Source of the DNA: Thiomargarita sp.
Lineage (GTDB): Bacteria > Pseudomonadota > Gammaproteobacteria > Beggiatoales > Beggiatoaceae
Direction: 5' to 3'
Length of the DNA: 34,849 nt
NCBI GenBank assembly: GCA_030633165.1
Contig: DAOVTJ010000001.1
Coordinates: 1 to 34,849 of the forward strand
Shown here piece after piece: positions 17,977 to 19,447 of this stretch. A program made the translations under genes and the position numbers. Positions within the stretch are counted from its first letter, which is position 1. Every line of letters begins with the position of its first letter. A model generated the notes under the pieces. The model ran no database searches. It worked only from the letters and a program-made list of their open reading frames with translations, and was not told where the DNA came from.

Positions 17977-18630
17977 TTAGCCTTGAGAAGCGCATGATTT
18001 AATCGCAGGGTGTACGATAATATCGCCACCTGGTGCGCCTGGTACTGCTCCTTTTATGAGCAATAAATTTCTTTCGAGATCAACTCGTGCGATTTCAAGA
18101 TTTTGCACAGTACAACGTACATTACCCATGTGTCCAGCCATTTTCTTACCTTTGAAGACACGTCCTGGCGTTTGATTTTGACCTATCGAACCAGCCGAAC
18201 GGTGTGCTAAGGAGTTACCATGGGTAGCATCTTGCATGTGAAAGTTATATCGTTTGATAACACCTGCAAATCCTTTTCCTTTACTTGTGCCCGTAACATC
18301 AACTTTTTGCCCATCTTTGAAAATATCGACTTTGAGTTCAGCGCCAAGTTGAATATCTTCAAGCTCTGAATCTTTTAGGCGTAATTCCCAAAAACCCCGT
18401 CCTGTTTCTACACCCGCTTTCGCTAATTGTCCACTGGTTGGTTTGTTAATTCTACTACTACGACGTTTACCACAAGTAATTTGTATGGCACGATAGCCAT
18501 CTTTTTCTTTTGTTTTGAGTTGCGTTACCCGATTGGGTGTTGCCTCAATAACGGTCACTGGTATGGAGACACCGTTTTCAGTAAAGATACGGGTCATTCC
18601 ACATTTACGACCGATAATTCCAACGGCCAT
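17977..18630 (-). CDS. rplC: 50S ribosomal protein L3
   Basis: 217 residues. [20 protein letters not shown], the [12 protein letters not shown] turn and [20 protein letters not shown] (with the Gln methylated by PrmB in E. coli) are present. Good SD (AGAGGA) upstream. It is separated from rpsJ by an extra gene and a palindrome, which is unusual. Confidence 0.98.
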
Positions 18631-18669
18631 TTTATTATTATCCTCTTGTTCACTAGGGTTTGAAAAAAG

Positions 18670-18699
18670 AAACCAAGTTTTTGGGAAAAAACTTGGTTT
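18670..18699. terminator. Strong terminator-like palindrome inside the S10 operon
   Basis: AAACCAAGTTTTT (18670-18682) and its exact complement (18687-18699) form a 13-bp stem with a 4-nt loop, in the 101-bp gap between the 85-codon gene and rplC. The stem core (AAACCAAG/CTTGGTTT) is shared with the palindrome at 27655-27683. It would resist, but need not stop, transcription into rplC. Confidence 0.65.
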
Positions 18700-18731
18700 T
18701 TCAAAATTTAAATTTCTCTAGAATAACACCT

Positions 18732-18989
18732 TTATGCCATTTGTTCAGTTCCCAAGGCATCACTTTTTGTTGGACTCCATTCTTTATTTATGGCTTTTGC
18801 GTACCAAATCAAAGCATCAGCATAGGTACTATTTGCTGCTCTTCTCATTTGCCAAAGACTTTCTAATGTTCTTGCACTTGTTGTTGGGAAGATTTCAGTC
18901 TTTAATTGTTTAAAGCTTATCCCATTTTTCTCTGCGAATTCCCGTAACCATTTTTTATCTCCGCGTCTAAACCATTGATTTTCAGTCAT
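18732..18989 (-). CDS. Unrecognised small protein inserted between rpsJ and rplC
   Basis: 85 residues, predicted mostly helical, with no signal peptide or membrane span. It has a canonical SD (AGGA, 7 bases before the ATG) and reads MTENQWFRRGDKKWLREFAE at the start. The stretch FAEKNGISFKQLK looks like a helix-turn-helix pair and LESLWQMRRAANSTYADALI like further helices, so a small DNA- or RNA-binding protein is possible. I recognise no family. No gene is expected here: rpsJ and rplC are usually adjacent. Being in the operon it should be transcribed at ribosomal-protein level, or be limited by the following palindrome. Confidence 0.7.
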   Translation of the reverse strand: MTENQWFRRGDKKWLREFAEKNGISFKQLKTEIFPTTSARTLESLWQMRRAANSTYADALIWYAKAINKEWSPTKSDALGTEQMA

Positions 18990-19053
18990 AAAAAATTCCT
19001 GGTACTCAAGAAAAAGCTAAAAAAATTAAGAACAAAGAACCGCAAAAATGTAT

Positions 19054-19365
19054 TTAATTAAGTTTAATTTGTACGTCAACACCTGCTGCTAAATCTAACT
19101 TCATCAAAGAATCAACCGTTTTATCTGTTGGGTCAATGATATCTAACAAACGTTTGTGGGTACGAATTTCATATTGATCTCGTGCATCTTTATTAACATG
19201 TGGTGAGATCAGTATGGTAAATTTTTCGTTTTTTGTTGGCAATGGTATTGGACCACGTAGTTGTGCCCCTGTTCGTCTTGCTGTTTCAACAATTTCACGT
19301 GCTGATTGATCAAGGAGACGATGGTCAAATGATTTTAAACGGATACGAATTCTTTGATTAGCCAT
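19054..19365 (-). CDS. rpsJ: 30S ribosomal protein S10 (NusE)
   Basis: 103 residues, exact family length. [28 protein letters not shown] and [20 protein letters not shown] are diagnostic. Besides its ribosome role it links transcription and translation as NusE. The start has no Shine-Dalgarno; an (ATTT)4 tract sits 1 bp upstream. tufA, normally just before it, is missing. Confidence 0.99.
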
Positions 19366-19366
19366 T

Positions 19367-19382
19367 ATTTATTTATTTATTT
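19367..19382. repeat. (ATTT)4 tetranucleotide tract abutting the rpsJ start
   Basis: Four ATTT units, read as AAAT on the coding strand, 1 bp upstream of the ATG. Such tracts can change copy number by slippage; here that would change the untranslated leader, not the reading frame. Confidence 0.8.
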
Positions 19383-19409
19383 AATGTTATTTGGGGGCAT
19401 GTTTTTGTC

Positions 19410-19437
19410 CTCAAACAGATACCTATATCTGTTTGAG
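19410..19437. repeat. Perfect palindrome in the fusA-rpsJ gap
   Basis: CTCAAACAGATA and TATCTGTTTGAG: a 12-bp stem with the 4-nt loop CCTA, starting 11 bp after the fusA stop. No T-run follows on the coding strand. It occupies the place where tufA is expected. Confidence 0.7.
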
Positions 19438-19447
19438 AATAAAAAAA

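Follow-up and report, generated by a model that had tools for sequence, protein, structure and literature searches.

A probable displaced Cro/CI-type repressor gene between rpsJ and rplC in a Thiomargarita draft genome

Results

A small coding gene separates rpsJ from rplC

We analysed a stretch of 34,849 nucleotides from Thiomargarita sp. (contig DAOVTJ010000001.1), hereafter the window, in which the ribosomal protein genes rpsJ and rplC are separated by 423 bp. On the minus strand the gene order is fusA, rpsJ, 64 bp, an ORF of 85 amino acids, 101 bp and rplC, with the following features.

17977..18630, minus strand: rplC (L3)
18631-19053: gap between rplC (start at 18630) and rpsJ (stop at 19054), 423 bp, both genes on the minus strand
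18631..18731, minus strand: 101-bp gap from the 85-aa ORF to rplC, with a stem and the rplC Shine-Dalgarno sequence (AAGAGGA)
18670..18699, minus strand: 13-bp perfect stem AAACCAAGTTTTT/AAAAACTTGGTTT with a 4-nt loop, and a T-run after it on the coding strand
18732..18989, minus strand: 85-aa ORF of a Beggiatoaceae-restricted family (P family), predicted to encode a small lambda-repressor-like HTH protein
18990..19053, minus strand: 64-bp gap from rpsJ to the 85-aa ORF, with AGGA and without the sigma-70 promoter and dyads of the cassettes described below
19054..19365, minus strand: rpsJ (S10)

The ORF starts with ATG, with the Shine-Dalgarno sequence AGGA directly upstream. Scored with the codon usage of the window, it reaches 0.335 bits/codon, within the range of the long window ORFs (from 0.17 up, mean 0.375), and the five other frames at the same place are all negative (−0.24 to −1.24). 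Host-like codon usage, conserved homologues and divergence biased to third codon positions show that the ORF is coding. An earlier note on this DNA, made from the sequence alone, had placed an 85-codon gene with a Shine-Dalgarno sequence between rpsJ and rplC; the gene is there, and the coordinates given in the note (18631-19053) match the gap exactly. In the window fusA directly precedes rpsJ (19366-19447) without tuf, as in the family genome G004; in several relatives an EF-Tu-like gene lies in between.

The palindrome downstream is a dispersed intergenic repeat

The perfect stem that the earlier note described after the gene is present at 18670-18699, with 13 pairs and a 4-nt loop. The region folds with z = −2.8, and terminator-like scoring found one such structure against 0.4 expected. 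The stem and U-tract have the form of an intrinsic terminator (13 pairs, 4-nt loop, CTTTTTTC), with only three G-C pairs; the stem thus resembles a weak terminator and, judged from its sequence, may damp rplC expression. Nothing near the gathering threshold was found in Rfam.

We find that the pattern AACCAAGTTT-N(2-16)-AAACTTGGTT occurs 9 times in the genome of the window, 5 times in the congener and up to 63 times in another genus (g2), and the reversed control pattern occurs nowhere. The copies, which are present in only 4 of 25 genera, mostly lie outside long ORFs (20 of 22 examined), often between genes of the same direction. Copies exceeding the control in this way mark a dispersed palindromic repeat, and the stem is therefore an intergenic repeat unrelated to the 85-aa gene. 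The gene and palindrome reported earlier as one insertion are both there, but they are two unrelated things, the stem recurring elsewhere in the genome. The whole insert was also considered as a MITE or repeat and rejected, since only the palindrome part recurs. Genomes with the palindrome include G000, G001, G002, G018, G403 and G404, among others; its arms are conserved, its loop is variable, and the single arms are often close to palindromes in their own right (AGAAAC CAA GTTTCT).

Dispersed intergenic repeats are described in other Beggiatoaceae, such as TAACTGA (MacGregor 2015, PMC4679880) and those of T. nelsonii (PMC4853749). The likeness is that the family genomes are repeat-rich and some repeats lie before rplC; the palindrome found here differs in sequence from these repeats and does not appear in the portions of the two reports used here.

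The gene is not kept at this junction in relatives

Upon examining 43 genomes of the family, we located rplC in 39 and measured the rpsJ-rplC gap in 29 relatives, in which it spans 12-748 bp and is mostly below 200 bp. The earlier note had raised the matter of whether Beggiatoaceae relatives keep the gene here: none of the 29 measured junctions holds a P-family homologue, and we thus see no sign of an ancestral member of the S10 operon. In G004, in which fusA also directly precedes rpsJ, the gap is 17 bp, and two genomes that carry the P family elsewhere (G017 and G406) have a junction of 117 bp without a P-family gene. The assembly of the sole congener (G001, 85% complete) contains neither rpsJ nor rplC. 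The longest gap, 748 bp in G401 (L059), has no P-family gene and contains apparent dispersed repeat sequence. For a related genome, MacGregor 2015 (PMC4679880) reports TAACTGA repeats ahead of the L3 gene, which indicates that the junction has received other repeats too. A search of the literature on KilA-N with Thiomargarita or on rpsJ-rplC inserts returned nothing bearing directly on the window gene.

The P family is conserved and restricted to Beggiatoaceae

We refer to the unnamed protein family of the 85-aa product as the P family. A profile built from its first five members was searched against the 43 family genomes and recovered intact members in the genome of the window (G000, one), G017 (four), G406 (one) and G398 (one), and partial matches in G017, G398 and G402. 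Remnants of the gene lie at loci L014, L047 and L049. The six intact homologues, whose hosts in the GTDB contig scan are Candidatus Thiomargarita nelsonii Hydrate Ridge (G017), a Thiomargarita sp. MAG and a Thiotrichaceae MAG, all lie outside the S10 operon. In a class-wide sample of 369 genomes the only credible match was in G000 itself, and searches of plasmids, phages and IMG/VR yielded no homologue, so that the family is found here in Beggiatoaceae only. Class-level profile matches at L041-L043, covering residues 6-51 within ORFs of ~400 aa, were judged spurious; by eye, we take L041 and L042 to be inositol-phosphate-synthase-like enzymes. A Bacteroidales match (L115) was rejected as a member because it falls inside another protein, presumably SusD-like, as recognised by eye.

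The homologues share 49-61% identity with the window protein, which retains every invariant residue of the family (22 invariant columns in the alignment). Divergence lies mostly at third codon positions, with dN/dS of ~0.1-0.2 in most pairs with computable dS. The window protein has no significant match in Pfam, NCBIfam, PHROGs or PDB sequences, and PADLOC gives no hit; the statement of the earlier note that no family could be recognised thus stands at the level of sequence profiles.

The predicted fold resembles lambda-repressor-like HTH proteins

An AlphaFold model from seven sequences reached a mean pLDDT of 61.8, with ~70-77 for residues 11-50; four other models gave 45-52, and a run with five sequences (49.7) was too poor. 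Four helices are predicted, at residues 12-21, 26-33, 39-46 and 54-68. When compared by Foldseek, nearly all top matches in PDB and most named top matches in BFVD were HTH proteins of the Cro/CI, XRE, Aca or HigA type, among them HigA2, Aca1, Aca2 and Aca10. Each match is weak by itself (E 0.1-2, with query-normalised TM-scores reaching 0.62 at most), and their consistency weighs more than any one of them. Sequence profiles did not place the protein significantly in HTH_3/XRE (Cro/CI), and hhalign of the P profile against one XRE neighbour was not significant. The HTH-like part suspected earlier as that of a regulator gains support from the modest predicted fold, which matches lambda-repressor-like HTH proteins, and from the homologues, which sit in phage-type repressor/antirepressor cassettes.

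Homologues lie in divergent cassettes with antirepressor-type genes

All six intact homologues have a divergent neighbour, with a start-to-start distance of ~170-205 bp, and in five of the six this partner is a gene of the phage antirepressor kind, namely KilA-N, ORF6N or Rha. Each of the six also has a sigma-70 promoter directed at the neighbour. The −35 box of this promoter lies 22-37 nt upstream of the P-family ATG, and the promoter has 12 of 12 consensus positions in three homologues, 11 in one and 10 in two; among dinucleotide shuffles, between 0 and 1.6% reached such scores. Furthermore, the six intergenic regions contain dyads or direct repeats that overlap the promoter or lie next to it. 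The partners and the dyads or repeats are as follows.

L045: KilA-N; TATACGG...CCCGTATA plus ACATACGGGTTATCAGTATGT
L046: ORF6N with a weak ANT match; GTGATTCACCTA, two copies
L012b: Rha; TATTTTCGTA, two copies
L012a: KilA-N, broken; TTAGTCGATTCGACTAA
L010: Rha, frameshifted; similar to L045
L011: 113-aa ORF without a Pfam match; ACTAATTATTAGT

The homologues therefore show the anatomy of a divergent repressor/antirepressor pair over a shared promoter/operator region; of the five antirepressor-type partners, two are broken (L010 and L012a). The dyads differ between cassettes. In one pair from different genera with similar proteins (L010 and L045), 22 consecutive nucleotides over one dyad and the −35 box are identical, with dS of ~0.85 between the genes and the remaining intergenic region diverged. 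From their position and this one conserved pair, we regard the dyads as putative operators. XRE/CI-type genes adjoin one ORF6N gene in a relative (L109), and such repressors do therefore occur beside these antirepressors. In other members of the bacterial family, a P-family neighbour is lacking beside most KilA-N genes.

The window copy is an orphan in its assembly

None of this anatomy accompanies the window copy. No promoter faces away from it (the best candidate has 8 of 12 consensus positions, with a shuffle fraction of 0.73), its 64-bp leader has no cassette-type dyads, and the window contains neither antirepressor relics nor perfect TTGACA-TATAAT promoters. The operator of the L011 type, ACTAATTATTAGT, gave four matches with two mismatches in the window against 2.5 expected. 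Additionally, no ORF6N, KilA-N or Rha gene is present in its own 91%-complete genome assembly. With neither partner, promoter nor operator beside it and no antirepressor in the assembly, the window copy, judged from that assembly, lies outside any repressor-antirepressor switch and is an orphan.

Discussion

A stray phage-type repressor is the best explanation

The divergent antirepressor partners, the promoter dyads and the HTH-like fold together indicate that the P family is most likely a Cro/CI-like repressor of a repressor-antirepressor switch. A repressor controlling the antirepressor promoter would be the natural reading of the cassette anatomy: it would bind the dyads overlapping the strong sigma-70 promoter, keeping the antirepressor gene off, and the antirepressor (KilA-N, ORF6N or Rha), once expressed, would relieve this repression. 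The gene and its family, the cassette anatomy with its promoter, the displacement and the lack of partners in the assembly are observed; we infer DNA binding by the P protein, the direction of regulation and expression of the window copy. In the window, the repressor gene would stand alone in the S10 operon with its reading frame and Shine-Dalgarno sequence kept, presumably transcribed with rpsJ and made either as an orphan repressor that acts constitutively in trans or as a tolerated passenger. That the window ORF is such a displaced orphan of a phage-derived switch is our preferred reading, to which we give a probability of about 0.62.

Like the Cro/CI (HTH_3/XRE) repressors of lambda and P22, the P protein is small, with a predicted four-helix HTH, and its homologues are divergent over a shared promoter/operator region and paired with antirepressor-type genes. 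Unlike them, it has neither significant HTH_3/XRE similarity nor a C-terminal peptidase/dimerisation domain, it is lineage-restricted, and the short flanks read around P-family genes contain no complete prophage. KilA-N, ORF6N and Rha antirepressor genes (PF04383, PF10543, PF09669) stand divergently beside five of the six intact homologues and are absent from the window and its whole genome assembly. In predicted fold and size the protein is also similar to Aca (anti-CRISPR-associated) and HigA-type small HTH autoregulators, from which it differs in having no acr or toxin partner and no sequence match. If the gene were not a Cro/CI analogue but came from a toxin-antitoxin or anti-CRISPR operon, as an HTH gene of the antitoxin or Aca type, this would account for the HigA2, Aca1, Aca2 and Aca10 matches; we consider such an origin very unlikely, because the neighbour that recurs is of the antirepressor type, no toxin-like or acr-like partner recurs, and PADLOC found no match.

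The location of the gene has invited readings tied to ribosome synthesis. The earlier note thought a regulator of the operon or a ribosome-associated factor conceivable, and neither gains support, as no relative keeps the gene here and the intact copies lie elsewhere. A domesticated S10-operon regulator would be produced from the operon itself and act close to rpsJ/rplC, by binding either DNA or the stem in the transcript, to tune expression of the downstream ribosomal proteins. It would fit the intact ORF with its Shine-Dalgarno sequence in the operon, the predicted HTH and the terminator-like stem just downstream, but it is made rather improbable by that stem being a generic genome repeat not tied to the P family, by the lack of an operator-like dyad or strong promoter adjoining the window copy and by the absence of the gene from this junction in all 29 relatives measured. 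A ribosome-associated factor (e.g. Rmf-like), belonging with the ribosomal genes, has in its favour the location in the S10 operon and one weak NCBIfam Rmf_like_phage match in one family member (E = 0.05); since none of the six other intact copies lies in a ribosomal operon, five have a phage regulator as neighbour and the predicted fold matches HTH proteins and not Rmf, it appears extremely unlikely.

A neutral passenger, recombined into a permissive junction, expressed without function and heading to decay, would have its repressor origin in common with our preferred reading. The patchy distribution, the remnants in other genomes (L014, L047, L049), the other non-coding inserts of up to 748 bp that the junction takes in relatives and the TAACTGA repeats before rplC reported in PMC4679880 are all consistent with it. 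We nevertheless hold it to be unlikely, given the intact ORF, its host-like codon use and its full set of family invariant residues, although the selection that these reflect may predate the insertion. The phage or transposon remnant raised in the earlier note holds in part, as to the phage connection, but the gene, with its intact frame and conserved sequence, is not a decayed remnant. A long shot is a phage-type repressor rewired into the S10 operon, whose level would track ribosome synthesis and couple growth rate to repression of a distant regulon or of incoming phage-like elements; if true, this would be immunity made from a housekeeping operon.

For the window the consequence is modest, a single displaced gene in a single draft genome. 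The case would also show that a stray regulator of phage type can sit even in a junction as highly conserved as rpsJ-rplC. The P family and its cassette are more interesting than the window copy, a displaced member. A functional hypothesis and testable candidate operators are now available for a family of small proteins in giant sulfur bacteria that has no name, and the six cassettes, with mostly different putative operators, form a small natural set for studying repressor-operator co-change.

Other genes near the antirepressors

Upon examining the surroundings of the antirepressor-type genes, we observed a second unnamed small family (GAGAKPTVWKHGG...) near Rha/ORF6N genes (L011:1039-1290, L105:2000-2197, L107:348-548, L136:1030-1224), which has no Pfam match, adjoins the P-family gene in L011 and is possibly another exchangeable partner. 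A third partner type consists of genes of ~120-130 aa starting MEKLSI.EAS..F..SRARLY.L upstream of ORF6N/KilA-N/Rha (L104, L108, L125, L142, L143), HTH_28-like in one case. Finally, in T. nelsonii, rpoC-like fragments in two frames lie beside a P-family gene (L010:488-1154, G017:C400), which may be compared with the alternate beta-prime genes described in PMC4679880.
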